NCBI RefSeq assembly: GCF_000422765.1
Contig: NZ_AUGR01000016.1
Coordinates: 1 to 64,000 of the forward strand
Reading direction: 5' to 3'
From: Neptunomonas japonica DSM 18939
GTDB taxonomy: Bacteria > Pseudomonadota > Gammaproteobacteria > Pseudomonadales > Balneatricaceae
Length of the DNA: 64,000 nt
Shown here piece after piece: positions 1 through 19,132 of the stretch. The translations under genes and the position numbers were made by a program. The notes beneath the pieces are model-generated. The model made no database searches and was not told where the DNA came from. It worked only from the letters and a program-made list of their open reading frames with translations. How positions within the stretch are numbered: position 1 is the stretch's first letter; each line of letters begins with the position of its first letter.

Positions 1-230
1 TCAATCTTACAGCTGCAGGTAAAGATTTCTTTACTGCTCCTATTCCTTTCTACAATGTATCTTTCCAATCAGGGCAGTTTGATCAGTTCAATGTTTCAGG
101 AACACAGTCAATCGTAGGTTCTTTGGATGCAGTATTTAACGTTCCAGAGCCAAGTGCTTTAGCATTGTTTGGTTTAGGTTTGTTAGGTATGGGTGGTGTT
201 GCAAGACGTAAAGCTAAAGCAAAAGCTTAA
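1..230 (+). CDS. PEP-CTERM sorting-domain protein, C-terminal part only
   Basis: The gene enters from the left edge; the open frame begins at base 3 and stops at TAA 228-230, so about 75 residues are visible. The C-terminus carries a complete PEP-CTERM signal: a VPEP motif, a hydrophobic stretch (ALALFGLGLLGMGGVA) and a basic RRKAKAKA tail. Proteins with this signal are known to be exported and then processed by an exosortase at the inner membrane. The visible 45 residues upstream match no domain I recognise. A strong terminator follows, so it is the last gene of its transcript. It fits the PEP-CTERM machinery that fills the next 20 kb. Confidence 0.9.
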   Translation, partial: NLTAAGKDFFTAPIPFYNVSFQSGQFDQFNVSGTQSIVGSLDAVFNVPEPSALALFGLGLLGMGGVARRKAKAKA

Positions 231-274
231 TTTCTACGGTAAGTATTACTCTCTATTTTAGTAATACTGTAAAG

Positions 275-305
275 AGCCCTGAAGTTTTCTTCGGGGCTTT
301 TTTAT
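275..305 (+). terminator. Rho-independent terminator of the PEP-CTERM gene
   Basis: A 10-bp stem (AGCCCTGAAG with CTTCGGGGCT, one G-T pair) has a TTTT loop and runs into a T tract, 45 bases after the stop codon. Confidence 0.85.
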
Positions 306-373
306 GCCTGTTGTTTTACTCTTTGTGATTTCTGCTTTTGCATATGTTTCAGGGTTGCTGGTGGGTAAGTTCA

Positions 374-404
374 TAAAAAAAGCCGACATATGCTAGTGTC
401 GGCT
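374..404 (-). terminator. Terminator of the thiF-like operon
   Basis: The perfect 8-bp stem AGCCGACA/TGTCGGCT is preceded on the plus strand by an A tract. Read on the minus strand it is a hairpin followed by TTTTTT, 47 bases beyond the stop of the ThiF-like gene. Confidence 0.8.
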
Positions 405-450
405 TAGTAGTGGTTGGCTCTATTAGTGCCAATTATTATATTCCTTTGTG

Positions 451-1335
451 TTACTTTTGATTTAGTGCGTCGGCCTGATCTCTAAACTGGCGTGCTACTA
501 GCCATTTTTTTAGTTTCTGTATAGGCCCGCGATTACCAAATCTAAGATACCCTGTGCGGTATATTCTTCTATAAGGATCAAATTGAGTATAATGAGGTGC
601 TGCCTTCACTTGTCTTTCGTCTCTATTGAGTAGTAGACAAAGAGCTTCTGTAGTGAGCAAGCCTGAAGCTATATTGCATGCGCTTGATAACGAAGGGCCT
701 GATTGTGAAGTTAAATCAACTTTTGACGAGTCCATGTATTTCCAGTGCGTGCCTCGGGGGCATAGGCCTACAGCAAATGCTACTAGTTTGTTGTAGTTAT
801 CCATCTCGTCATCGATATCAAAATATTCATCAAAACTCATAGAGTCTGCCGTGAATATATGTAATGTTCCAGAAAATCCAAGTGGTGCAGAAAATACAAC
901 TGGTATTTTTAGTTCCCTTGCAGTTTTGTGGAGCAGGCGCCTTGCTTCCATTTGAAAAAAATCGATACTATCAATAACAACATCAACATCCTTCAAAAAA
1001 GCGTGTACGTTTTCAGGTTGAACACCTTCGTTAAAAACCTCCATGGATAAGGAGGGGTGTATGTCTTTTGCCATTTCGGCTAGAACTTCTGTTTTCTTTC
1101 TATCTACAGTGCTGCTCGTCGCGCCAATTTGTCTATTGGAGTTGGCAGCAGAAAACTCGTCTAGATCAGCTATATTAAATGCGCCTATGCCCATCCTTAC
1201 TAGAGTTAGTAGATTGATTCCGCCAAGCCCTCCTAAACCTGCAACAGCAACGCGGCTGGAGAGGAGCTTTTGTTGTTCGTCTGGATTAACAAGGCCGAGA
1301 TTTCTGCAAACAGCTGTTTCGTAATAGGTATTCAT
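451..1335 (-). CDS. ThiF/MoeB/E1-like adenylyltransferase
   Basis: This 294-residue protein has the Rossmann-type ATP-binding fold of the ThiF/MoeB/HesA superfamily: GLGGLG at about residues 33-38, the ADLD acidic pair near 56-59, and the N-x-N-R-Q motif at 65-69. Family members adenylate the C-terminus of a ubiquitin-like or sulfur-carrier protein, or another carboxylate. I see no CxxC zinc pairs as in MoeB; a single Cys in GLCPRG near residue 190 might be catalytic. It is the last gene of a minus-strand operon, 35 bases after an N-acyltransferase. No ubiquitin-like partner is encoded nearby, so its substrate is unknown. A role in modifying an N-acyl product or a PEP-CTERM-related factor is inference. 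Confidence 0.8.
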   Translation of the reverse strand: MNTYYETAVCRNLGLVNPDEQQKLLSSRVAVAGLGGLGGINLLTLVRMGIGAFNIADLDEFSAANSNRQIGATSSTVDRKKTEVLAEMAKDIHPSLSMEVFNEGVQPENVHAFLKDVDVVIDSIDFFQMEARRLLHKTARELKIPVVFSAPLGFSGTLHIFTADSMSFDEYFDIDDEMDNYNKLVAFAVGLCPRGTHWKYMDSSKVDLTSQSGPSLSSACNIASGLLTTEALCLLLNRDERQVKAAPHYTQFDPYRRIYRTGYLRFGNRGPIQKLKKWLVARQFRDQADALNQK

Positions 1336-1370
1336 TATGTAAGTTCCCTATAAAGCACCAATTGCTTTAA

Positions 1371-2336
1371 TCAGAAAGGAAAGACGGAAGAAGATTTTTT
1401 ATGCTCTTCTCTCAGTAAATTCATTGTTGGCTCATCTAGCTGGCTGAGCATCTGAGTGCGCTCAGATAAAAAATACTTTAGTTGCTCCGCTGTTTGCGCT
1501 ACTCCTTCACCCTTAAGGCGGTTTGCCTCAGGCGTGTCAGTAAAGAAGAATGTGAATAAATTAGCGTCAAAGTGGTCAGAGTTGTAAACTTTTTCAGCTG
1601 CAGATTCTGCTTCAGGTATGTTTAAAATATGGCATTGTGTTTCAAGTTGATTAGCTGCTGCATACTTTTTTACTTCACCAATTGGTCTAAATAGCAGCAT
1701 TCTTCTGTAAAAACTTAAATGCTTCTTGGTGACTGAGCAGGCAACATCTGTTGCATTTTTATGCCTCACAAATTCAAACATTAGTTTGTACAAGTACATA
1801 GCAATATTGTGCTTACGATAGTCAGGGTTGATAGCAAGTGAGGTAACTTCTATTAAACGATGACCTTCTTTTCGTAGTTGTTTGATGTTGTTGCCACAAA
1901 TCTCCTCCATAGGTAAGCCTACAGATGAGTCTGTAACTATAGTTAGTGTACCAACTATTATGCTTCCTTCATCGAATTTGGAGAAATCTGGTTTTTCTTT
2001 GTCTAGCTCAGGGTGATAAACCGCAATCAGAATACGAGTGTTGGGTAATAAATGATATTTGGTGAAACGTATTTTGTCGCCTGTATCACTCTGAAGTCCT
2101 GCTTGGACATAAGAGTCCCAAACTAGTTCGTAAGCTTTTTCAATTTCTTCTGTTGATTGGGCTATTTTGAAAGTAATCGCGCAACTGTCGAGGCTATCAA
2201 TCAGGTTGCTTCTACGTAACCTAACTGCACGTCGACGTTCAATATTGTTGTTATCCACATTTGGCCTCATTGATTCGTCGCTAGGTTTGTTAAATGTGCT
2301 GCTTACTAGGAAGATAGCACCACCACATATAAACAT
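1371..2336 (-). CDS. FeeM-like GNAT N-acyltransferase (N-acyl amino acid synthase type)
   Basis: The protein has 321 residues and a GNAT/LuxI-like fold from about residue 52 (ITFKIAQSTEEIEKAYELVW) to 240, including a VTSLAINPDYRKHNIAMYLY stretch like the acyl-donor-binding segment. This pattern resembles N-acyl amino acid synthases of the FeeM type, which join acyl-ACP-derived fatty acids to amino acids. Such synthases are known to cluster with PEP-CTERM/exosortase loci. The start is uncertain: ATG at 2336 adds a hydrophobic N-terminus with no visible ribosome site, and ATG at 2270 is equally possible. It sits between a second acyltransferase and the E1-like gene on the same strand. Confidence 0.7.
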   Translation of the reverse strand: MFICGGAIFLVSSTFNKPSDESMRPNVDNNNIERRRAVRLRRSNLIDSLDSCAITFKIAQSTEEIEKAYELVWDSYVQAGLQSDTGDKIRFTKYHLLPNTRILIAVYHPELDKEKPDFSKFDEGSIIVGTLTIVTDSSVGLPMEEICGNNIKQLRKEGHRLIEVTSLAINPDYRKHNIAMYLYKLMFEFVRHKNATDVACSVTKKHLSFYRRMLLFRPIGEVKKYAAANQLETQCHILNIPEAESAAEKVYNSDHFDANLFTFFFTDTPEANRLKGEGVAQTAEQLKYFLSERTQMLSQLDEPTMNLLREEHKKSSSVFPF

Positions 2337-2468
2337 TATGATAATTTATAAAGTATTTAATATTTATAAATTAGTGTAGGACAATTTGTCGTAGAAGCAA
2401 ATTTTGCACTTGCTATTAGTGTGAGGCCAACTCAGTTTTCAACTGTTGATTTATTTGGTTAGATAGTT

Positions 2469-3224
2469 CTACATATTTGGTGTGTAGTCTTTGCTTATGC
2501 TGTTGTGAATTGCGTCATAAAGCTCTTTGAGTTCAGGCTTCATGTTCTCTATTGCAGACTCAGTTCTAATAAAATATGGAGCCCTTGTTCCATGGTAATC
2601 TATATCCTCGCCGGCTTTTTGAAATATGATACCTGACCTTTTTAATAATCTGGGTAGAAAAGGCTCCATCATAGCAAAAACATTAGTGCGTTCAGAGAGT
2701 GTTGTAAGCGAAGTGGCCGCTAGAAATGCGGAAACAGCAATTAAAGGGAAGTGCCTTCGTTCTTCATCAGTAAATTGAAACTGTTGTGCGTTTCCGAATC
2801 GGTCAGTAGTTTCGTTGGTACGTCGTCTGAAGGTTCCATCTACGGCTAGGCGAGAAATTTCGCAAATTTTATTTCTATCTAAATTTAGCTTCTCTATAAA
2901 CTCCGCGTCTAGGTTGGCACCGCAGTGTTTTTCAAAAGGAAGCAGTGATTGGGATTCGTTAAAATTAGTAGGTACCAGTCTTACGCAGCCTGCTGTTTTT
3001 CCTGACGCTTTGTGCTTGATGAGGCAGTGTAGAGAGCGTAGGTCAAATTCATCGCTTTCTTCTTCGTTGGGAAAATTTTCAGCAGCCTCATAATTAAACT
3101 CTTTGCAATAGACGTTAAATCGTGTACGAAAGCTCTGTTTTTTAAGTTCATCGTTGAAGGCTAAGTTGACAGTGAAATATTCCTGAAAATTATTTGCTAA
3201 TGTTCCTTTCATGCATCGTGCCAT
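2469..3224 (-). CDS. PEP-CTERM/exosortase system-associated acyltransferase
   Basis: This 251-residue protein resembles the family of LuxI-like acyltransferases associated with PEP-CTERM/exosortase systems. The N-terminal FRTRFNVYCKEFNYEAAENF and HCLIKHKASGKTAGCVRLV segments correspond to the R-x-x-V-Y-x-x-E and D-x-x-T-x-x-x-G-x-x-R-L positions of autoinducer-synthase folds, and KICEISRLAVDGTFRRR is the second signature. It probably uses acyl-ACP. It is the first gene of the minus-strand operon, with a good promoter at 3250-3278. ATG at 3224 is used here, but ATG at 3212 is possible because neither has a clear ribosome site. Its product is unknown. Confidence 0.8.
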   Translation of the reverse strand: MARCMKGTLANNFQEYFTVNLAFNDELKKQSFRTRFNVYCKEFNYEAAENFPNEEESDEFDLRSLHCLIKHKASGKTAGCVRLVPTNFNESQSLLPFEKHCGANLDAEFIEKLNLDRNKICEISRLAVDGTFRRRTNETTDRFGNAQQFQFTDEERRHFPLIAVSAFLAATSLTTLSERTNVFAMMEPFLPRLLKRSGIIFQKAGEDIDYHGTRAPYFIRTESAIENMKPELKELYDAIHNSISKDYTPNM

Positions 3225-3249
3225 CCATAGTGTTTTTGCTCGAAAGTAA

Positions 3250-3278
3250 TTTATACAAATAAGAAGAGCTTCTGTAAA
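3250..3278 (-). promoter_or_regulatory. Sigma-70-type promoter of the acyltransferase-thiF operon
   Basis: On the minus strand, TTTACA (3278-3273) and TATAAA (3255-3250) are separated by exactly 17 bases, 26 bases upstream of the ATG at 3224. Confidence 0.55.
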
Positions 3279-3305
3279 GCGATTCAGAGTTTAGTTGTTG
3301 GGTAG

Positions 3306-3849
3306 TGCCGTAGCGGCCAGGATATCAACCCTGGCCTTGATATTGACTTGTTTGATAAAAATATCACTCGTGACAATTCAGGTGATTTTTTGGAAAGTGT
3401 TGATAGCTTGGGTATTATTACCTTAGAGATACAGCTTTGATTTTTTGCTCGATGTTATGAATTAGACTTACCTAAATTGCAGATTATCCTACTGGGAGTT
3501 GGGAATGCATGTTCTAGATGGTTTGGGTTTCGAGGATCAAATTATTTATTTCATCATGAGGGGGGCAGCAGTTTTGCAGAGAAAATACTATCGTTGGTAG
3601 GTTTTTGTTAACTTTCTAAATGAAAAAAGGTTCCCTCAGCAGTAATGGGTATAGCGATTAGCGCTGGAGTTGCCTGTACGCAAGTTCTCAAGTTGCTATT
3701 GAGTCAGGGGATATTGTATCTGCACTAAGAGGCCTGCACTTTGATGCTTACTTAAATAAGCTAAAAAAAGCTGGTGACCTTTTGGTAATCGTAATCCTTT
3801 ACAAAAGATCATGTACAGCCGTATTAAGAAAATACTCGATGAAAAATAG
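3306..3849 (+). pseudogene. Decayed coding remnant, possibly glycosyltransferase-like
   Basis: The plus strand reads as protein-like sequence in three successive frames. Frame A (3306-3611) gives NPGLDIDLFDKNITRDNSG, DSLGIITLEIQL, then TGA at 3438, then LPKLQIILLGVGNA and RGSNYLFHHEGGSSFAEK, ending at TAA 3609. A second frame near 3689 gives AIESGDIVSALRGLHFDAYL, and a third from 3778 gives PFGNRNPLQKIMYSRIKKIL, ending in TAG at 3847. An internal stop plus at least two frameshifts indicate a dead gene. The NYLFHHEGGSSF segment is reminiscent of GT2 glycosyltransferase C-termini, but that assignment is tentative. There is no start codon with a ribosome site. Confidence 0.4.
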
Positions 3850-3992
3850 GTTTCTATGCACCTATTACGTATCGCCAGAATCGATTAAGCCTTTATTTAT
3901 ATAACCTCAAGTATTATGCGCTAATTGATAGGCAGCTTATGAAAACAATATCGGCATTTAGTATACGTGAGGTAGAAGAAGCTATCAGGTAG
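3843..3992 (+). pseudogene. Possible second coding remnant before prsT
   Basis: A 50-codon stop-to-stop frame without its own start reads protein-like, including LYNLKYYALIDRQLMKT and SAFSIREVEEAIR. The last segment recalls the C-terminal end of medium-chain reductase or polyketide enoyl-reductase domains (S-x-x-E-x-E-E-A-F-R), but it is too short to be sure. The rest of the interval up to the prsT start (3993-4137) shows no recognisable feature other than the ribosome site at 4126-4130. Confidence 0.2.
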
Positions 3993-4137: not shown

Positions 4138-6963
4138 TTGAAGATGAATGACAATAAGCCGGTTATCCAGTTCAAGCGCAAAGCAATCACCTCGTTGCTT
4201 TTATGTGGCTTTCTTACGTTACCGGTTTCTCATTTTGCAGCGGCAAGTGTTGAGCCTGAGTATATGCAAGATGTGAACGAGTATTTACAGCAAGGTAAGG
4301 CACGTAGTGCCGTAATTACTTTGAAAAACGTTCTTCAAGACAATCCAAGTGACGCGAATGCTAGGTTTGCTTTAGGTAATATCTATCTGAGTTTAGGGAA
4401 TTTGCCTGCTGCCGAGAAAGAGATTAGTGACGCGTATCTTTTGGAGCCTGAAAACCCTGAAATAAGCATAGCTCTTGCGAAAGTCCTTCTACAATATCGA
4501 AAGTTTGAAAAGCTTCAGAATGTCCTGTCTGTAAAAGATGGTTGGTCTTCTGCTTTTGTTGCCGAGGCTTTTGCTCTTGAAGCGCAAGTTAAAATTTTTC
4601 ATGGGGAAGCTGACGAAGCGAGTAGGTTGCTACTTGAGGCTTCTGAACTTGATTCTGAAAATACAACCGTGCTGTTTGCTAAAGCTCAGTTGCAGGCTAG
4701 CCTTTCTAAGCCAGATTTAGCTGCAAAAAATTTAGAGCAACTGTTTGCGATAGATCCTGACCACGTTCAGGGTTTGGTTTTGCAAGGTAACTTGCTTTTT
4801 CTTGAAAAGAATTATCCAGCCGCCATTAAGTCTTTTGAAAAAATTATTCAAATACAGCCTCAGGTTGGGATAGCAAATCTGCTTTTGGCAAAAGCTTTAA
4901 TGGCTAACCAGCAACTTGACCTAGCAAGTAAGCAGTTGAAAATGGTTTTATCAACGGCTGCAAATCATCCTGAAGCAAATGCTTTACAAGCAAAAATAGA
5001 TTTCTTTAATAAAAACTTTCAGAAAGCAGCAGAGCATGCAGAGGCTAGCTTGCAGCAAATAGAAGGCGATCCTGAAATTCTCTATATTGCGGCTGCGTCG
5101 TATTATTCGTTAAAGAGATATGAAGTTGCATTAAGCCAGATAAACAAGGTTTTAACAGGTAACCCCTCTCATGTAGACTCATTAAAATTAAAAGCCGCTA
5201 TTTCTCTTAAGCTTGATCTTGTTGATGATGCCGCAGAAAGTTTATCTGGTATTAAAGGTGATGCTTTCAAAGAAAGTGACAGTCAGTTGCTAACCTCAAC
5301 GGGCCTTGCGCTGCTGAAAACTAATAAGAATGAGCTTGGTAAGCGTTTGCTAAAGTTGGCAGCAGGTTTAAATAGTGACGATCCTAGGGTTTATTTAGGG
5401 CAGGCTTCTATAGCATCTCAAGAGGGGGATCGTGAGGCAGTGATTGCAGAGCTTCTGACTGCTCTAGATAAAGCCCCTGATGCGTTACAAACAGAAACAG
5501 CACTTATTTTAACCTACCTGCAAAACAATCAAGCAGATTTTGCGCTTAAGCATGCTAAGAGTTTAGCCGAAAAACATCCAGAGAACCCTAATGGCGCTAC
5601 CTTTGAAGGGTTGAGCTACGTCATGATGAAAGATTATGAGAGAGCCGAAAAATCTTTCTTAAATGCTTTAGTGATTGAGCCAGGTAACCCTAATGCTAGT
5701 CATAATCTCGCATCTCTTTTGTCGCGTAAAGGTGCAAGTGCTAGTGAAATAAGTAAAGTTCATGAGAGTGTTATTAAATATCACCCGGAAAACTTAGGCT
5801 CTTTAATTGAGTTGGCTATATTAGACCAAAAATCAGGAGGCGTAGAGCAAGCTACTCGTAGACTTGACCTTGCAATTGAAAGCCATCCTGATGCATTACG
5901 ACCACGAATGGTGTTGTCTGAGTTTTATTTAAAAAATAAACAGCCCTTGAAGGCGATGGCTGTTATTGATGATGCGCTTACCTTAAGACAGGATAGTTCG
6001 GATCTATACATATTGTCAGGTAATGCGAGATTAAGAGGTGGTCAACAAGAAAAAGCTGTTGAACATTATAAAAAAGCGATTCAAATCTCACCAGAAAAGA
6101 CCTCTCCATATTTTGCTTTGGCTCAACTGTATACAAACATAAACCAGTTTGACCTTGCTCTTGCCGCAGTTGATAAAGTGCTTGATCTAGATCCTGATCA
6201 CTTTGGCGCGCTGTTGATTAAAGGGAGAGCGGCTCTTAAAGCAGGTGATGTTAGTGATGCGCAATCTATATCTAAGGACTTGTTAAAAGTTGCTCCAGAA
6301 AGCTCTTACTTAAAAGAGTTTGAAGCACAAATTGCTTTTACTGATAAACAGTTTAATAAAGCGGCCTTGCTGTATAAAGAGACACTTCTTACACGAGAAA
6401 GTAGTCAGGTTAATGTGCAACTCGCCTCTGCGTTGTGGCAGCAGGAGAAGCGTTCTGAAGCTATATCAACACTGTCTAATTGGCTAGAGCGGTTTCCGAA
6501 GGATGTTCTAAATACTAATGTATTAGCTAGTTATTATTTAGCAGATAAGCAAGTTGATGGGGCAATTGAGCAGTTCACAAATTTACTGGTGCTCACACCG
6601 AATAACGCCGTAGCTAATAACAATTTATCTTGGTTGCTAATGCAGCGTGGAGAGTTAAGTAAGGCTGAAGCTTACGCCGAGAAAGCATTAGAGTTGATAC
6701 CTGATAACCCCAAGATAATAGATACACTTGGTACTATATTGTTTAAAAAAGGAGAGTTTGATAAAGCCAAAACTTTATTTATAAATGCTTTGGTTATCGA
6801 CTCTGGCAATTTGGATATTCAGTTGCATTTGGCTCAAACGCTTTTGGAGACAGGAGAGGCGCCTAAAGCTAAGAATTTACTCACGAAAATTCTTAGCGAA
6901 GAATACTCTGAGGTTGCCTTCGCAGGGCGAGGGGTTGCTCGTAAGTTGCTGAGTAGCTTATAA
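4138..6963 (+). CDS. prsT: PEP-CTERM system TPR-repeat protein PrsT
   Basis: This is a 941-residue protein with an N-terminal signal-like segment (ITSLLLCGFLTLPVSHFAAA, about residues 17-36) followed by continuous tetratricopeptide repeats to the C-terminus. Examples are NARFALGNIYLSLGNLPAAE near 55 and NNLSWLLMQRGELSKAEAYA near 825. Length, signal and repeat number match the PrsT family, which co-occurs with XrtA-type exosortase loci. It probably acts in the periplasm or outer membrane in exopolysaccharide/PEP-CTERM export. The start is TTG at 4138, seven bases after AGGAG (4126-4130). ATG at 4144 is the alternative, with a 13-base gap. Decayed sequences lie on both sides. Confidence 0.88.
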   Translation: MKMNDNKPVIQFKRKAITSLLLCGFLTLPVSHFAAASVEPEYMQDVNEYLQQGKARSAVITLKNVLQDNPSDANARFALGNIYLSLGNLPAAEKEISDAYLLEPENPEISIALAKVLLQYRKFEKLQNVLSVKDGWSSAFVAEAFALEAQVKIFHGEADEASRLLLEASELDSENTTVLFAKAQLQASLSKPDLAAKNLEQLFAIDPDHVQGLVLQGNLLFLEKNYPAAIKSFEKIIQIQPQVGIANLLLAKALMANQQLDLASKQLKMVLSTAANHPEANALQAKIDFFNKNFQKAAEHAEASLQQIEGDPEILYIAAASYYSLKRYEVALSQINKVLTGNPSHVDSLKLKAAISLKLDLVDDAAESLSGIKGDAFKESDSQLLTSTGLALLKTNKNELGKRLLKLAAGLNSDDPRVYLGQASIASQEGDREAVIAELLTALDKAPDALQTETALILTYLQNNQADFALKHAKSLAEKHPENPNGATFEGLSYVMMKDYERAEKSFLNALVIEPGNPNASHNLASLLSRKGASASEISKVHESVIKYHPENLGSLIELAILDQKSGGVEQATRRLDLAIESHPDALRPRMVLSEFYLKNKQPLKAMAVIDDALTLRQDSSDLYILSGNARLRGGQQEKAVEHYKKAIQISPEKTSPYFALAQLYTNINQFDLALAAVDKVLDLDPDHFGALLIKGRAALKAGDVSDAQSISKDLLKVAPESSYLKEFEAQIAFTDKQFNKAALLYKETLLTRESSQVNVQLASALWQQEKRSEAISTLSNWLERFPKDVLNTNVLASYYLADKQVDGAIEQFTNLLVLTPNNAVANNNLSWLLMQRGELSKAEAYAEKALELIPDNPKIIDTLGTILFKKGEFDKAKTLFINALVIDSGNLDIQLHLAQTLLETGEAPKAKNLLTKILSEEYSEVAFAGRGVARKLLSSL

Positions 6964-7286: not shown

Positions 7287-8780
7287 ATGGATAAAGTAAA
7301 TGCTCGTTATGGTAGATCTGATTCGTTATCTGATAATAGAGAGTCAAGAGCGTCGGCTAAACGAGTGAAGCTGCATTTTTGCCATGGGAAGTTCAGAGTG
7401 TTTGGACACTATGTGCATGCTCAGTTTTTGTTGCTTGCGCTGCTCGAGTTTATTTTGTTAGGGGTGGGGAGCTATTTAGTTCATGTTTCTTTTGCTGATA
7501 GCAGTGTTAACCAGACATTGACAGGGTTGGCGGCCAGTGTGCTGTTACCAGCAGTTTTGTTATCTTTGAGCCTTTCAGCAATGGGCTTGTATGATACTCG
7601 CCAAAGGCAGTGTTTGGTTGGTGTGCTGTCGCGTCTTGTCGTAGCTATTGTTTTTGGTATTACATTAACTATTATAATTAATTACTTTTTCCCATATACC
7701 TACGGTGGTTATGCAGTTTTACCTGTTACAGCTTTGGTTTCACTTGCTGGGTTGATGCTGATTAGAGCGCTTTTTTATAACTTTGTTGATGGCAAGCTTT
7801 TACGGCGTCGCGTTCTTGTATTGGGTACAGGTGATAGAGCCTCTTATATTGATAAGTTGCGCCGTAAGGCGGATATGAGAGGTGTAAATCTATTAGGCTT
7901 CATTCAGCTGAATCCAGCAGATGAGAGTTTGGTTTCGAAAGAAAGAATAGTCTCTCCCGGTGATTGTATCCGCAATTACGCAGTATCAAATGATATTGAT
8001 GAGATTGTCATCGCATTAGATGATCGACGTGTGAAATTTCCTGTTAAAGAGCTTTTAGATTGCAGGATGAGCGGCATAGATGTAATTGACATGCTGGACT
8101 TCTTTGAACGAGAAAGAGGGTTAATTCAATTAGACTTGCTGCAGCCAGGGTGGCTTATATTTGCTAAAGGCTTTTCTCCAGATATGTTTCGTGCATTCAA
8201 GAAGCGCACAGTTGATGTGATGGTTAGTTTGGGTTTGTTGGTGGTTTTCTCTCCATTTATGTTGTTGACTGCTCTGGCTATTTATATTGAAAGCCTTGGT
8301 TCTGGAGATATTCTTTATCGGCAAAAACGCGTAGGTCGAAATGGTCGCCCGTTTGATGTAATTAAATTCAGAAGCATGAGAACAGATGCTGAAGCTGATG
8401 GTAAAGCTCGTTGGGCTACGGAAAATGATACTAGGGTTACCGTAGTAGGTAATTTTATCCGTAAGTATAGACTTGATGAGTTGCCACAATTATGGAATGT
8501 ATTGTCCGGCGATATGAGTCTAGTAGGGCCAAGGCCAGAAAGGCCTGAGTTTGTAACAAGGTTGAATCATTTGAACTCCTTGTATGAAGAAAGGCATAGA
8601 TTGAGTCCTGGTGTTACTGGGTGGGCTCAGCTGTGTTATCCCTATGGGGCTTCGGATGAAGACTCTATTCAAAAGCTCGAATACGACCTGTATTACGTTA
8701 AAAACCATAGTATTTTTCTGGATATGTATATTCTGATCCAGACTGTAGAAGTGGTTTTGTTTAAGAAGGGTTCTCGCTAA
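7287..8780 (+). CDS. XrtA/PEP-CTERM system sugar-phosphate transferase (polyprenyl glycosylphosphotransferase)
   Basis: The 497-residue protein has about four membrane segments between residues 45 and 175, a Rossmann-like central domain (RRRVLVLGTGDRASYIDKLR), and a C-terminal bacterial sugar transferase domain. The latter carries the reentrant hydrophobic helix VMVSLGLLVVFSPFMLLTAL, KFRSM, and DELPQLWNVLSGDMSLVGPR. Such enzymes load the first sugar phosphate onto undecaprenyl phosphate for exopolysaccharide synthesis. The architecture matches the subfamily tied to XrtA-type PEP-CTERM loci (EpsB-like). The start ATG follows AGGAAAG. No other glycosyltransferase of the pathway is in the window. 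Confidence 0.85.
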   Translation: MDKVNARYGRSDSLSDNRESRASAKRVKLHFCHGKFRVFGHYVHAQFLLLALLEFILLGVGSYLVHVSFADSSVNQTLTGLAASVLLPAVLLSLSLSAMGLYDTRQRQCLVGVLSRLVVAIVFGITLTIIINYFFPYTYGGYAVLPVTALVSLAGLMLIRALFYNFVDGKLLRRRVLVLGTGDRASYIDKLRRKADMRGVNLLGFIQLNPADESLVSKERIVSPGDCIRNYAVSNDIDEIVIALDDRRVKFPVKELLDCRMSGIDVIDMLDFFERERGLIQLDLLQPGWLIFAKGFSPDMFRAFKKRTVDVMVSLGLLVVFSPFMLLTALAIYIESLGSGDILYRQKRVGRNGRPFDVIKFRSMRTDAEADGKARWATENDTRVTVVGNFIRKYRLDELPQLWNVLSGDMSLVGPRPERPEFVTRLNHLNSLYEERHRLSPGVTGWAQLCYPYGASDEDSIQKLEYDLYYVKNHSIFLDMYILIQTVEVVLFKKGSR

Positions 8781-8847: not shown

Positions 8848-10209
8848 TTATGTTTTAGGGTGTAGATTGTACTTGTCTAGCATACTGTAAAGAGTAGGGC
8901 GTGTGATTCCAAGTGCTTTTGCTGTATCTGAAATGCTAAAGTCAGCATGGTGTAGTGCTCTTTTGATTGCTTTCTTTTCTGCTTCATCTCTTATTTGCTT
9001 CAGATTTAGTGGGGCGTAATCGGCGTCTTCTGAGCAAAGCTCCAAGTCTTCAGTTGTTATGTATGCGCCATCAGCCATTATGACGGCTCTTTTGATTTTA
9101 CTCTCAATTTCCCGCACATTTCCAGGCCAGTTGTAAGATTCAATTGCTGCTATTGCTTCTGAATCAAAATTTCTAATGGTCTTACCATATTCTTTGTTTA
9201 GTCGTGTCAAAAAAGACTTTGCAAGTAAAAGAGCGTCGCCCTCTCTGTCTTTTAACGAAGGTATCTGAACGGTTATTTCGCTGATTCTGTAGTATAAATC
9301 TTCTCTAAAGCGCCCTTCTTTTATGTGTGTTGTTAAGTCTTGGTGTGTCGCGCATACAATGCGCACATCAATTGGGATTTCCACCCTACCACCAACCCTT
9401 TCAATAATACGCTCTTGAAAAAAACGAAGAAGTTTCGCTTGTAGCTCAAAAGGTAGATCTCCTATCTCGTCGAGAAAAAGTGTCCCGCCGTTGGCTAGTT
9501 CGATTTTTCCTATTGTTTGTTTGGTAGCGCCAGTGAAAGCTCCTTTTTCATGACCAAAAAGTTCGCTTTCAAGTAAGCTATCAGGAATAGCTGCACAGTT
9601 GATAGCAACTATTTTCTCATTAGCGCGAGGGCTTAGTTTGTGGATGGCCTGAGCAAATAGTTCTTTACCAGTTCCGCTTGCGCCTAAAAGCAATGTGGTG
9701 ATGTCAGATGGAGCAACTTTTTCAATTGTTCTGCATGCTTTGAGCATAGGGGCACTTGCAGCAATGATTCCATCTAATGGCATGCTGTGATGGCTTTGTT
9801 GTAGTTGTTTGTTTTCAACTTCTAACTGGTAGACTCTGTATGCTCTTTCTACAATAAGGGTTAATATTTCAGGATCAGCGGGTTTTTGGTAAAAGTCATA
9901 AGCACCTAGTGCTATCGCTTTCACCGCGTTAGTGCGGTCGTTATCCCCTGTGACCACAATAACTTTACATTCAGGAGTTAACGATAATATTTCTTTCAAT
10001 GTAGCGAAGCCTTCAGTCACTCCACCAGGATCAGGAGGGAGTCCTAAGTCAAGGAGAACTACTCCAGGCTGAAGGCGTCGTAATTGTGTAATGGCATCAG
10101 CCCTTGTGCCGCAAATAGCGACTTCAAAACCATCAAAGCACCAGCGTAACTGGCTTTGCAAGCCTTCATCATCCTCAACGATAAGCAGGTTTTTTTTAGA
10201 TCCATTCAT
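8848..10209 (-). CDS. prsR: PEP-CTERM-box sigma-54 response regulator PrsR
   Basis: This 453-residue regulator is of the NtrC/AtoC type. It has a receiver domain at 1-125 with probable phospho-acceptor D54, and an AAA+ sigma-54 interaction domain with Walker A GASGTGKE (176-183), GAFTGA (223-228) and Walker B GGTLFLDE (241-248). A C-terminal Fis-type helix-turn-helix (ISDTAKALGITRPTLYSMLD) completes it. GAFTGA shows it should activate sigma-54 polymerase. It sits 30 bases downstream of its cognate kinase PrsK. The PrsR family is known to control PEP-CTERM genes. A sigma-54 promoter lies upstream of the divergent cassette at 12733-12748 and is a candidate target. Confidence 0.92.
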   Translation of the reverse strand: MNGSKKNLLIVEDDEGLQSQLRWCFDGFEVAICGTRADAITQLRRLQPGVVLLDLGLPPDPGGVTEGFATLKEILSLTPECKVIVVTGDNDRTNAVKAIALGAYDFYQKPADPEILTLIVERAYRVYQLEVENKQLQQSHHSMPLDGIIAASAPMLKACRTIEKVAPSDITTLLLGASGTGKELFAQAIHKLSPRANEKIVAINCAAIPDSLLESELFGHEKGAFTGATKQTIGKIELANGGTLFLDEIGDLPFELQAKLLRFFQERIIERVGGRVEIPIDVRIVCATHQDLTTHIKEGRFREDLYYRISEITVQIPSLKDREGDALLLAKSFLTRLNKEYGKTIRNFDSEAIAAIESYNWPGNVREIESKIKRAVIMADGAYITTEDLELCSEDADYAPLNLKQIRDEAEKKAIKRALHHADFSISDTAKALGITRPTLYSMLDKYNLHPKT

Positions 10210-10239: not shown

Positions 10240-12318
10240 TTAGGATGGGGTTTGGTTGTGTAATGGTAGTGTAATGTGGAATGTTGTTCCGCTACCCAGT
10301 GAACTTGTTACTTGGATATCACCACCAAGAGAGCGAACTACTTCCCTGCTTTCAAAGGCGCCGACGCCCATTCCTGTTAAGCCTTTGGTTGAGTCAAAGG
10401 CTTTGAATAATCTGTGTTGAATAAAGTTTTCATCCATACCGCAGCCACTATCTTTGATTTCAATAATAGCACTAGAAGGAGAGCAGCATAAATTGATCTC
10501 TATACTTCCATGTTCTTCTGTTGCCTCTAAAGCGTTTTGGATGATGTGACTAAAGACATTTGATAGTTGTTCATTATCGGCAAAGACAAAAGCTTGTAAC
10601 TCTGTATCAATGAGTTTTGGCATAGGTAGGCGTGTGCTAAAGCGCTGAATGACCGTTTTAAGTAATTGTTTAATATCAATGGGTACGGGAGTTGTGCCAC
10701 GCATTCCATTGCGCATTTGTTCCATTAGTCGGGTCATTCTTGTGACAGAGTTGCGTACCGTTAGGATGACATCATCTACAAACTCGGGTTTGTGTTTGTG
10801 CTTTTCTGCATTGGAAACGATGAGTGATTGTTGGGCTAAAATATTTTTCAGGTCATGAACAATATAGGCAGATAAGCGATTGAATGCTTCAAACTGTTGA
10901 GCTTGTATAAGTGCTTGGCTTGCTTGGTATTGTGCTAAAAGGCTGGCTGCTTGTTTGCCGGCAATTTTTAGTAGGTCTCGATCTTCCCAATTTATATTCT
11001 TTTGGATATCAGAGTGTTTTACGAGTACAAAGCCATAAACTTCTGCATTAAAGAGTAAGGGGACCATTAGCCATGCATTTGGTATGTCTAATAAACTTGT
11101 TGGAAGATTTAGGTCGTCGTATATGCCTGGAGTTAGTTTGTATTCATCAAAATCAATCACCCATTCTGTTCGTTCAAAAAACTCGCTGATTTCGAGTAAA
11201 TGTGAGGCGCTTATTGCTGGGGCTGCCATATCCCAATTGGTAAGTAGGTGATAAGTTGAATGTTCGTTTCTTCCCCAGATAACACCGCCTTTGCTTTGTA
11301 CTAAGGAGCCAATGGCTGAGCAAATTCGTTCGGGAGTTTCGAGTTCGTGTTCGGAAAGTTGGTGAGTGAACTTTTGCCACTCCTCTCTATAGTCATATTT
11401 GTAGCTAAAGAAATGCTTGCTGAGGACGACGCGGACACTAGAGCGAATCTTGTCTGAAAATAGTAATATGAAAAGAAGCAGTCCAGCTCCGAAAAGAAAA
11501 GTTATTTGTAATACTGAACCCCATGTGCCGCCATAGTATCTAATGAAGTAACCCGCTCCTGACATGAGTACAAGGTAGAACCCAGCCCCTGTTAATGTGG
11601 CGGTATGGAAGACCACTTGACGCGAAACTTGTAAATTAAGTGACCAGTTAGGGTTTCTTGTTAGGGATATCATGATCAGCGGCATTGCGATGCCATTGAT
11701 CACGCCGCGAGCATCCCAAAGCTGTTGATCCAAGTGCTTAAAGAGAAGGGCATCTGCATAAATAAAAAAATCATAGGCAAAAATACTTCCTAGTCCCAAG
11801 CATAGATGTTTAAGAAACCAGTGCTGCTCTTTGGATGAGTTTCTATAAAGCTGCTCTATGAGTAACAAGCCGATTATAGAGAATACCATCCAGGCAATTA
11901 ATGGGATGTCATGTTTTAGGTTTTCGGATGGCTCGCCTAGGGTTGAGCTGCTCATGAGTAAAATCATGCAGCTCAGAATAAATACTATGCTTATCAGAAG
12001 TAATGGAGAGTTTATTAACCTAGTAGCTATAGATGAGCTAATGTTGGTCGAATTCTTATTCGGTGAGATTATTTTTAGTAAGAAAAAGCACCAAGCAACA
12101 TCGCGTAAGATCTCTGTTATCTGTATAGCTTGTAGAGGTACTTCTGTTGAGAAGTAAGAAAAAGCTATTAGGGCTGCCCAGATAAAGGTTGCTATGGTTG
12201 CTGCTTTTACGGGTAAACCAGATTTGTCAGCTTTTGATGATGAGAGTAATACGATGCCGAGTAGTAGATAGCTTACGCAAGCAAATAAGTAACTATAAAA
12301 ACCGACATTGTCGAGCAT
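10240..12318 (-). CDS. prsK: PEP-CTERM system sensor histidine kinase PrsK
   Basis: The protein has 692 residues. The first ~300 form eight or nine membrane helices, followed by a GAF domain (about 320-470) and a HisKA/HATPase module. The phospho-acceptor is H488 in HDLKN. The N box is in FSHIIQNALEATEEHG, G1 is DSGCGMDENF and G2 is TGMGVGAFESREV, ending in GSGTTFHITLPL. The membrane-GAF-kinase layout is that of PrsK. It is the first gene of the prsK-prsR pair and is transcribed away from the Tat/HprK cassette. The signal it senses is unknown. Confidence 0.92.
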   Translation of the reverse strand: MLDNVGFYSYLFACVSYLLLGIVLLSSSKADKSGLPVKAATIATFIWAALIAFSYFSTEVPLQAIQITEILRDVAWCFFLLKIISPNKNSTNISSSIATRLINSPLLLISIVFILSCMILLMSSSTLGEPSENLKHDIPLIAWMVFSIIGLLLIEQLYRNSSKEQHWFLKHLCLGLGSIFAYDFFIYADALLFKHLDQQLWDARGVINGIAMPLIMISLTRNPNWSLNLQVSRQVVFHTATLTGAGFYLVLMSGAGYFIRYYGGTWGSVLQITFLFGAGLLLFILLFSDKIRSSVRVVLSKHFFSYKYDYREEWQKFTHQLSEHELETPERICSAIGSLVQSKGGVIWGRNEHSTYHLLTNWDMAAPAISASHLLEISEFFERTEWVIDFDEYKLTPGIYDDLNLPTSLLDIPNAWLMVPLLFNAEVYGFVLVKHSDIQKNINWEDRDLLKIAGKQAASLLAQYQASQALIQAQQFEAFNRLSAYIVHDLKNILAQQSLIVSNAEKHKHKPEFVDDVILTVRNSVTRMTRLMEQMRNGMRGTTPVPIDIKQLLKTVIQRFSTRLPMPKLIDTELQAFVFADNEQLSNVFSHIIQNALEATEEHGSIEINLCCSPSSAIIEIKDSGCGMDENFIQHRLFKAFDSTKGLTGMGVGAFESREVVRSLGGDIQVTSSLGSGTTFHITLPLHNQTPS

Positions 12319-13605: not shown

Positions 13606-13899
13606 ATGTCTATGGTGATCTATAACTCTGCTATAGACTTATCCTCGGCCTTGATTGCTGAGTTTGGTGATATGTCTGTTGTTCATGAGCAGGAAAGTGA
13701 TGGTTTGCACATGTTAAGTGCTTCCATAGTTTCTCTCTTAAAGAGAATTTCTGTAGCTGGTGAGCAAGAGGCGGACATATTGCAGTTAATTCAAGAAACT
13801 ATTTTTTGTGTATCTGCGCAAGGAAATGTGGCTATGGATAGCAGTAAAGAGTACTTAATGTTGCTGATCAGCCAGGGAATTATTAAAAAAATCCAATGA
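13606..13899 (+). CDS. PqqD-family peptide chaperone of the HPr-rel-A system
   Basis: A small 97-residue protein with the PqqD-like layout: two short beta segments, then helices around LHMLSASIVSLLKRISVAG and a C-terminal YLMLLISQGIIKKIQ resembling the L-x-x-L-x-x-x-G-(L/I)-(I/L) ending of PqqD folds. PqqD proteins bind peptide substrates and present them to modifying enzymes. The stop overlaps the next start (ATGA), so it is translationally coupled to the HprK-like kinase. The identification relies on size, pattern and context, because sequence conservation in this family is low. Confidence 0.65.
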   Translation: MSMVIYNSAIDLSSALIAEFGDMSVVHEQESDGLHMLSASIVSLLKRISVAGEQEADILQLIQETIFCVSAQGNVAMDSSKEYLMLLISQGIIKKIQ

Positions 13900-14801
13900 T
13901 AGTGTCTGATTTTTCAGTGGATGAATGTGCCGATCAGCTAGCTTGTGACGGTTTGAGATTGAATGTAGGGCCTTTTTGGTGCCATATTCGATCCTCTCTC
14001 CCATTGGTAGCTGCTCATATTTATCAGTTGTACCCCGATGCGATAATTGATCAAGATAGAGCGTTTGTTGATTTTCCTATACAGATTTCGCGAAAGTCAG
14101 GAACGCGTGGCTGGGTTAAGCCCTTGGTTGAGTTTACGTTTAATGGAAATGTACCTTTTACCCCCTTGTCTTTGAACCAATCCCCGGCATTAGCAGAGTG
14201 GGGTATTAACTGGTGCGTGTCAGCGCACGCACATCAGTACTTGATTTTGCATGCTGCAGCGGTAGAAAAAAATAATAAGGCCATTATTATGCCAGCACCT
14301 TCAGGTTCTGGTAAGAGTACCCTGTGTACTGCTCTTGTTGCTCGTGGTTGGCGCTTATTGTCTGATGAATTGACAATGATCTCTACTAAGAACTCAATGC
14401 TTCAGCCATTGCCAAAACCCATGAGTCTTAAAAATGAGTCTATACAAGTTATTCAAGAATTCTGGCCAGAATCAGTATTTGGTCATATCTGTACTGATAC
14501 GCTAAAAGGTTCGGTAGCTCATGTGAAGCCTCCTGCTGAGAGCGTGCAGCGTTCATCTGAGAAGGCAGAGGCGGCAATTGTGCTTTTCCCGCAATATCAA
14601 GCTGGTGCTGCATTGCAGCTGAAAAGTAAAGAAAAAGCTTATGCTTATATGTCTTTGGTTGAGAATGCATTTAATTATCACTTGCTTGGGTCCCATGCTT
14701 TTCATGCGTTGTCTAATCTAGTACAGCAATCTGATGCTTATGAGCTTGCCTACAGTGATTTAAATGATGCAATATCTCAATTAGAGTTGTTAGTTTCATG
14801 A
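13896..14801 (+). CDS. HprK-related kinase A
   Basis: This 301-residue protein has a P-loop APSGSGKST at 134-142 and a following LLSDELTMI (154-162), as in the C-terminal kinase domain of HPr kinase/phosphorylase. The N-terminal 110 residues do not resemble HprK. The HPr-P-x-G-Y signature typical of true HprK is absent, and no HPr gene is nearby, so the substrate is probably not HPr. The family is known to co-occur with a PqqD-like protein, as here. It overlaps both neighbours by four bases (ATGA), which implies one translational unit. Confidence 0.85.
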   Translation: MIVSDFSVDECADQLACDGLRLNVGPFWCHIRSSLPLVAAHIYQLYPDAIIDQDRAFVDFPIQISRKSGTRGWVKPLVEFTFNGNVPFTPLSLNQSPALAEWGINWCVSAHAHQYLILHAAAVEKNNKAIIMPAPSGSGKSTLCTALVARGWRLLSDELTMISTKNSMLQPLPKPMSLKNESIQVIQEFWPESVFGHICTDTLKGSVAHVKPPAESVQRSSEKAEAAIVLFPQYQAGAALQLKSKEKAYAYMSLVENAFNYHLLGSHAFHALSNLVQQSDAYELAYSDLNDAISQLELLVS

Positions 14802-17539: not shown

Positions 17540-17821
17540 CTGATCTCCAGAACGGGTAACTATAAAACCATAAAGCTATATTTAAATTAGAATGATTTAA
17601 TTTTTATTTGGAAGTTAGATTCTATATGAATAAGGTAGAATATAAAGCCTTGTTAAGTGTCTGTGAATCTTCTTAATGCTATGCTAAAGATTACTCGTTC
17701 AGGCTCGGCGGCTCAAGTCCGATTCGTAGTTTACAGCTGGATGCTATTTCAGGGGCGAAGTAAATGAATTATATGTGGCGATATATCGCTAATGATGTTT
17801 TCAGGTTATGGAATAATACTG

Positions 17822-19132
<1,311 letters not shown>

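Follow-up and report, generated by a model that had tools for sequence, protein, structure and literature searches.

A stand-alone ThiF-fold enzyme paired with an N-acyl amino acid synthase in a PEP-CTERM locus of Neptunomonas japonica, a candidate variant of the oxazolone pathway without its flavin-dependent oxidase

What does an E1-like adenylating enzyme activate when its gene lies beside those of N-acyltransferases and among PEP-CTERM genes? The question is raised by a 64,000-nt stretch of the Neptunomonas japonica DSM 18939 genome (contig NZ_AUGR01000016.1, positions 1 to 64,000; hereafter, the window), which carries, in order of transcription on the minus strand, a gene for a PEP-CTERM/exosortase-associated acyltransferase (TIGR03694), after 132 nt a gene for a FeeM-type N-acyl amino acid synthase (NAS) and, after a further 35 nt, a gene for a stand-alone ThiF-fold enzyme (Table 1). 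An earlier note on this DNA had described two acyltransferases and an E1-like enzyme on one strand, and this description holds: the three open reading frames (ORFs) are all present where it had placed them, with family scores well above the cut-offs. The unusual feature of the locus, which the note did not mention, is that the flavin-dependent oxidase (FDO) of the published oxazolone clusters is missing beside the NAS and ThiF genes. We give about an even chance to the reading that the pair constitutes an FDO-free module for activating and cyclising an N-acyl amino acid, one that corresponds to the NAS and cyclase steps of the oxazolone pathway, lies in a PEP-CTERM locus and yields a saturated product.

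The study by de Rond et al. (2021) is said to be the original OxzAB paper. In the oxazolone pathways, the ThiF-fold proteins OxzB, TyzB and TrzS activate N-acyl amino acids at the carboxylate and do so without any ubiquitin-like partner (PMC10404671, PMC12856293), and ThiF homologues cyclise N-acyl amino acids using ATP (PMC12856293). In the case of TrzS, a saturated cyclised intermediate accumulates under O2 limitation or with a crippled FDO (PMC12856293), so that such a ThiF domain can cyclise without prior desaturation. The OxzAB, TyzACB and TrzAS systems (PMC12856293, PMC10404671) resemble the window in having an NAS gene beside that of a ThiF-fold cyclase and no ubiquitin-like partner, and the window ThiF belongs to NF006077, a family that also covers the ThiF part of ThiF-nitroreductase fusions; with the ThiF part of one such fusion (L052, 683 aa) it shares 45.8% identity. 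Unlike these systems, in which an FDO is present (PMC12856293, PMC10404671, PMC12479983), the window has no FDO fused to ThiF or adjacent to it, none was detected in its genome, and its setting is that of PEP-CTERM/XrtA genes. The stieleriacine, thalassotalic acid and kyonggic acid clusters likewise combine NAS and ThiF but keep a nitroreductase, tied to 2,3-dehydrotyrosine products (PMC12479983), whereas the window has none in the cluster. Adenylation of an N-acyl amino acid by the E1-like enzyme, as proposed in the earlier note, thus matches published ThiF biochemistry (PMC10404671, PMC12856293) and is probably right in kind, though not new in kind: NAS-ThiF-FDO pathways are already in print, and the FDO-free, exosortase-linked form would be a variant of them. 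Acyltransferase-only cases may also have been seen already, since ThiF nodes are reported to adjoin "an FDO, an acyltransferase, or both" (PMC12856293). We found no description of FDO-free ThiFs, nor of a tie between NF006077 ThiFs and exosortases, in the open-licence literature (subscription papers lay outside the search), and no mention of ThiF together with NAS in the available parts of PMC3226654, PMC8776678 and PMC11631085; UBA/ThiF-type genes are tabulated in an exopolysaccharide/PEP-CTERM region of Rubrivivax (PMC3684757).

NF006077 was searched in 397 genomes of the phylum, 18 of which passed the cut-off (lowest pass 335 bits, next match 116 bits), and more widely in genomes of the class (44 of 370), of one family, f9 (65 of 118), and of the window's own family (12 of 60). 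In total, 125 ThiF loci were scored with custom-built profiles, namely the window, the locus of its sister species Neptunomonas qingdaonensis (L004, genome G894; ThiF 86% identical) and 123 others, of which f9 supplied 66 (65 from the family search plus G372); L111, located on the same contig as L004, was left out. The flanks measured ~9 kb for L044-L060 and ~7 kb for the loci after these, some being clipped by contig ends. Of the 125 loci, 111 have an NAS within the fetched flanks, and in 64 it precedes ThiF by ≤200 nt and is encoded on the same strand (42 of 74 FDO-less and 22 of 51 FDO-bearing loci). No NAS scoring >40 bits was found in the remaining 14 loci, in which rebuilt profiles gave weak matches (25-39 bits) in three and nothing in 11. 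In the class sample, which is the broadest, an NAS was found in 33 of the 44 loci and an FDO was not found in 17.

The trio itself, which the earlier note had treated as a unit, is not conserved as one: it is found complete on one strand in 1 of 125 loci, and both NAS types, FeeM and TIGR03694, occur near ThiF only in the window and L004. Even in the latter, which retains the FeeM-ThiF pair (42 nt apart), the TIGR03694 gene is split off, at a distance of 5.6 kb and in the opposite orientation. The trio was therefore rejected as a conserved unit; the conserved element is the pairing of NAS and ThiF. TIGR03694 was over its cut-off in 38 of the 397 phylum genomes, comprising 16 of the 18 NF006077 genomes versus 22 of the 379 others (p 2e-16), and both NF006077 genomes without it have a FeeM gene immediately before ThiF. 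The same arrangement is found in L004, L044, L045 and L084 (domain gaps of 42, 52, 149 and 82 nt, respectively); altogether, FeeM-type NAS were detected near ThiF in six loci, in one of them weakly (48 bits) and on the opposite strand. Along its 989 aa, the NF011425 model matches FeeM (6-270), ThiF (309-587) and, weakly, an FDO (615-791, E 0.0011), as though these were parts of a single protein.

The FDO is fused to ThiF in 26 of the 125 loci, lies ≤1.5 kb away in 22 and farther in three, and was not found in 74, including the window; f9 contributes 49 of these 74. An overly narrow profile was rejected as the cause, since an FDO profile rebuilt from all 51 sequences revealed no further FDO locus among the 125. 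Neither the window nor L004 has an FDO in its flank, a result that may be false for single loci because flanks are short or clipped; the assembly consists of 39 contigs, and the window opens with the first base of one of them, C13, which leaves only 450 nt of sequence past ThiF. Searched genome-wide (profile A2, E ≤ 0.001), 61 of the 74 FDO-less genomes gave no FDO match, the genome of the window being one of them; nine, including G894, contained distant FDO-like matches (67-115 bits) and four contained fragments of ~20 bits. Two FDO-bearing genomes used as controls, whose own sequences were rows of this profile, gave 319 (G868) and 331 bits (G869). In L110, from another genome of the window's genus, ThiF and an FDO gene encoded on the opposite strand converge, separated by 31 nt; no NAS was found nearby.

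The substrate, adenylation, cyclisation and product that we infer for the window ThiF are as follows. FeeM, directly before ThiF, would most likely N-acylate an amino acid with a fatty acyl group; the protein matches the FeeM structure (PDB 2g0b, E 3.7e-7), its start being uncertain, with 22 N-terminal residues that have no counterpart in L004. The TIGR03694 enzyme may separately make another N-acyl amino acid. Using ATP, ThiF would adenylate the N-acyl amino acid at its carboxylate. Attack by the amide oxygen on the activated carboxylate would then close the ring of a saturated 5(4H)-oxazolone (azlactone); alternatively, the activated ester may be hydrolysed or passed to a nucleophile. Because the FDO is absent, no desaturation is proposed, and the product would remain saturated.

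Judged by sequence, the FDO-less ThiF still appears to be an enzyme of the same kind. When conserved columns were picked within each group (51 FDO-bearing ThiFs; 72 FDO-less ThiFs, with the window and L004 excluded), 76 of the 88 columns that are ≥90% conserved in the FDO-bearing group proved to be ≥90% conserved in the FDO-less group as well, and the other 12, where listed, were looser, not switched. Only six of the 88 fell below 80% in FDO-less ThiFs; the commonest residue at these positions is unchanged, and the window has it at all six. Moreover, 28 columns are invariant in all 125 ThiFs, the window included, and D59, N65, R68, K81, D122 and D125 are among the 29 columns invariant in a 62-row alignment; by analogy, invariant residues would bind or act on ATP. 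The AlphaFold2 model of the window ThiF is confident (pLDDT 95.0), and comparison with L004 yields a dN/dS of ~0.045, with dS near saturation. Against the Rv1355c (TrzS) family model, the window ThiF scores 74.3 bits and the adjacent FDO of L054 89 bits (E 1.8e-25), both under the cut-off of 476. The approximate ThiF tree includes 13 changes between FDO states, which does not favour a single FDO loss event, this tree being only indicative (47 of 121 inner branches with support <80 and several long-branch rows). One 64-row group (support 91) contains 60 FDO-less rows; support elsewhere is mixed.

Several points weigh against an FDO-free module with a saturated product. The window ThiF departs from the consensus at 18 of the 77 columns conserved at ≥90% and shares a long branch (1.51) with that of L004, for which reason the substrate of these two enzymes may differ. 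No NAS was found in the flank of seven of the 74 FDO-less loci. The putative kinship to OxzB, TyzB and TrzS is drawn from family models and the L052 fusion, not from these named sequences. A saturated azlactone is reactive, and cyclised saturated species are reported as not detected in the strains of PMC12856293; no oxazolone was observed with the NAS, ThiF and nitroreductase clusters of the stieleriacine, kyonggic acid and thalassotalic acid producers (PMC12479983). Finally, the genome of the window encodes four short PF00881 nitroreductases (open frames of 190-249 aa) that could act in trans.

The last point leads to the alternative that the window genes belong to an ordinary dehydro-oxazolone (tyrazolone-like) pathway in which another nitroreductase of the genome performs the desaturation in trans, a possibility that we regard as unlikely. 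It would fit with the tyrazolone pathway, where desaturation and cyclisation can run in either order (PMC12856293), and with the distant FDO-like proteins found in nine of the 74 FDO-less genomes, among them that of N. qingdaonensis; however, the window's genome is among the 61 without any FDO-profile match, and its own PF00881 proteins are short, encoded on other contigs and unlinked to ThiF. A substitute oxidase in the vicinity was rejected, as none of the neighbour clusters enriched in FDO-less loci (≥10 loci, p < 0.05) is desaturase-like, to go by the one or few members inspected per cluster. These clusters comprise stand-alone ThiF, PrsT, trypsin-like and patatin proteins as well as a sugar-nucleotide dehydrogenase, an epimerase, DUF218, exosortase and three clusters with PEP-CTERM members.

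Patatin-like phospholipase genes (PF01734) are located near NAS-ThiF in 45 of the 125 loci (for example, L058:10350-11216) and are commoner in FDO-less (35 of 74) than in FDO-bearing (10 of 51) loci, which may be due to clade inheritance. A trypsin-like protease gene is found near ThiF in 63 loci, 49 FDO-less and 14 FDO-bearing (for example, L051:10037-10804). Three neighbour families with PEP-CTERM members are confined to one FDO state, namely that of L052:6813-7616 (12 FDO-bearing and no FDO-less loci) and those of L046:3696-4685 and L055:7945-8835 (21 and 20 FDO-less loci, respectively, and no FDO-bearing ones); such families may reflect clade inheritance.

Turning from the missing oxidase to the setting of the pair, we found that in the class sample an exosortase (PF09721) is present in 42 of the 44 ThiF genomes versus 83 of the 326 others (p 4e-20); the two ThiF genomes with no match, G471 and G685, are both drafts with a fused FDO. 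Exosortases were detected in 72 of the 74 FDO-less genomes, the misses being G865 and the 71%-complete G891 (the match in G115 is weak, at 58 bits), and in 27 of the 30 FDO-bearing genomes tested (p 0.14). These totals combine two scans, which gave 17 of 17 and 55 of 57 for the FDO-less genomes and 25 of 27 and 2 of 3 for the FDO-bearing ones. Because the FDO-bearing genomes are not clearly different, the exosortase link belongs to the NF006077 ThiF overall, not to the FDO-less form alone. Within f9, all 49 FDO-less genomes have an exosortase versus 11 of 20 genomes without an NF006077 ThiF (the first 20 of 53; p 3e-6). Of the 72 FDO-less genomes with an exosortase, 51 have it on the contig that carries ThiF and ≤60 kb from that gene; the window's genome has its exosortase on a different contig, C6.

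In ten of the fetched loci, all FDO-less, one exosortase subtype lies 3.6-5.5 kb from ThiF; its three scanned members are over the cut-off of TIGR02602 and under that of the XrtA model. In nine of these loci, NAS, ThiF, PrsT, exosortase and PEP-CTERM genes are all on one strand; L141, the tenth, has its exosortase gene on the opposite strand. The order NAS, ThiF, PrsT, exosortase, PEP-CTERM is found in seven (L046, L048, L114, L116, L119, L127 and L132), with consecutive gene calls in five and one (L116) or two (L127) genes between NAS and ThiF in the others, and the order NAS, ThiF, PEP-CTERM, PrsT, exosortase in two (L118 and L120), where the PEP-CTERM gene directly follows ThiF. A patatin-like gene is located upstream in all nine one-strand loci except L116. 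More generally, ThiF, or ThiF plus FDO, is followed within 400 nt by a PEP-CTERM gene in 55 of the 125 loci, the proportions of FDO-less loci (37 of 74) and FDO-bearing loci (18 of 51) not differing significantly (p 0.14). The floc_PepA model was matched (E ≤ 1e-5) by 45 of the 52 such neighbours scanned (three near-identical ones were left out), to which the shared sorting tail may contribute; the gene adjoining ThiF in L004 is also floc_PepA-like (190.7 bits).

These linkages suggest a role for the NAS-ThiF product in the PEP-CTERM system, perhaps that of donating a lipid. It could then be made for the exosortase system, as an activated N-acyl amino acid that either provides the lipid on sorted PEP-CTERM proteins or exopolysaccharide or itself turns into it, a proposal that we consider doubtful: its support from exosortase co-occurrence, the nine one-strand loci and the downstream PEP-CTERM genes is gene linkage only, which alone is no proof of such a role since FDO-bearing relatives occupy similar loci. 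Furthermore, no exosortase match was obtained in the FDO-less G865 and G891 nor in the FDO-bearing G296, and 83 of the 125 exosortase genomes of the class have no NF006077 ThiF.

That the three genes are independent neighbours, gathered in an exopolysaccharide/PEP-CTERM region with no joint function, is very improbable. The full trio is indeed not conserved, and TIGR03694 occurs without an NF006077 ThiF in 22 of the 38 genomes that have it, but the pairing of NAS with ThiF in 111 loci and the recurrence of FeeM before ThiF on separate branches of the tree (L044, L045, L084 and window/L004) contradict independence for NAS and ThiF, although not for the part of the TIGR03694 gene in the window locus.

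The earlier note had also observed that ThiF has no ubiquitin-like partner beside it. No conserved small ORF ending in GG was found ≤3 kb from ThiF in the 125 loci, and none whatever in the window and L004; 57 of 1737 small ORFs within this distance have GG near the C-terminus, matching between loci as single pairs only, and a ubiquitin-like partner near ThiF was thus rejected. CxxC metal motifs are a feature of the sulfur-carrier E1 enzymes ThiF and MoeB; CxxC was not found in the window ThiF and was matched in 37 of the 125 family members. TcdA and MccB are E1-like enzymes that work without a ubiquitin-like protein. The window ThiF shares the E1-like fold with TcdA and AclA, its sequence being under the TcdA cut-off (NF011696, 72.1 versus 304 bits), and its best solved structures are tied (AclA 9egb, Z 27.3; ThiF 1zud, 27.1; MoeB, 26.5); no literature on AclA turned up among open-licence papers. 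Despite this fold, a conventional E1-like enzyme activating a ubiquitin-like or sulfur-carrier protein of the ThiS/MoaD type is the least credible reading and most improbable, given scores far below the equivalog cut-offs of ThiF (105.2 versus 275.25 bits) and MoeB (69.5 versus 376.55 bits), the two further ThiF-family genes available elsewhere in the genome, the lack of a conserved GG-ended ORF and the consistent linkage to NAS.

As to the limits of the locus, the earlier note had placed a terminator at 374-404 and a promoter at 3250-3278. A hairpin is present close to the former position, on the minus strand from 405 to 380, which taken alone is weak evidence because five terminator-like sites were found in positions 1-3900 versus 3.0 +/- 1.9 in shuffled sequence; no promoter was found at the latter position, and promoter-like sites numbered eight versus 10.3 expected. 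The surrounding PEP-CTERM genes are listed in Table 1.

Table 1. Features of the window, with family scores and, where available, cut-offs
Feature	Coordinates	Strand	Details
PEP-CTERM protein gene, 3' end, truncated by contig edge, convergent with ThiF	1..229	+	C-terminus VPEPSALALFGLGLLGMGGVARRKAKAKA
Intrinsic-terminator-like hairpin 3' of ThiF	380..405	-	9-pair stem and T run
ThiF-fold (E1-like) adenylating enzyme, stand-alone, NF006077/PRK08223 family, 294 aa	451..1335	-	NF006077 363.8 bits (curated cut-off 266); PF00899 (ThiF) 154.7 bits (cut-off 28.1)
FeeM-type N-acyl amino acid synthase (NAS), 321 aa	1371..2336	-	PF21926 (FeeM) 126.5 bits (gathering cut-off 27)
PEP-CTERM/exosortase-associated acyltransferase (TIGR03694), 251 aa	2469..3224	-	232.4 bits (curated cut-off 111.95)
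XrtA/PEP-CTERM system TPR protein PrsT	4138..6963	+	TIGR02917 631.3 bits
XrtA/PEP-CTERM system sugar transferase (EpsB_2)	7287..8780	+	TIGR03013 545.5 bits
PEP-CTERM-box response regulator (PrsR)	8848-10209	-	TIGR02915 691.8 bits
Histidine kinase PrsK	10240-12318	-	TIGR02916 744.4 bits
HprK-related kinase A	13896-14801		TIGR04352
XrtA/PEP-CTERM-associated ATPase	17792-19132		TIGR03015, slightly under cut-off

Going by the title of Craig et al. (2011), FeeM/NasY-type N-acyl amino acid synthases have reportedly been linked to PEP-CTERM; the window locus is of the same kind, and in it an activating ThiF follows the synthase. To our knowledge, no lipid used in PEP-CTERM anchoring has been identified to date. 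At their furthest reach, the present observations would make the FDO-free ThiFs a dedicated part of the exosortase system, not crippled oxazolone enzymes: together with the TIGR03694 enzyme or FeeM, they would make an azlactone or acyl adenylate of an N-acyl amino acid, to be transferred to an amine on PEP-CTERM proteins, a membrane lipid or exopolysaccharide, giving the PEP-CTERM anchoring lipid, which is speculative and, in our estimate, unlikely. Because a conserved activating enzyme stands beside a synthase, sometimes on one strand with an exosortase, the locus offers a concrete chemical hypothesis for which two genes suffice. It proposes a reaction for NF006077, a family still named "hypothetical protein" in NCBIfam, and sets this family apart from ubiquitin-like systems.

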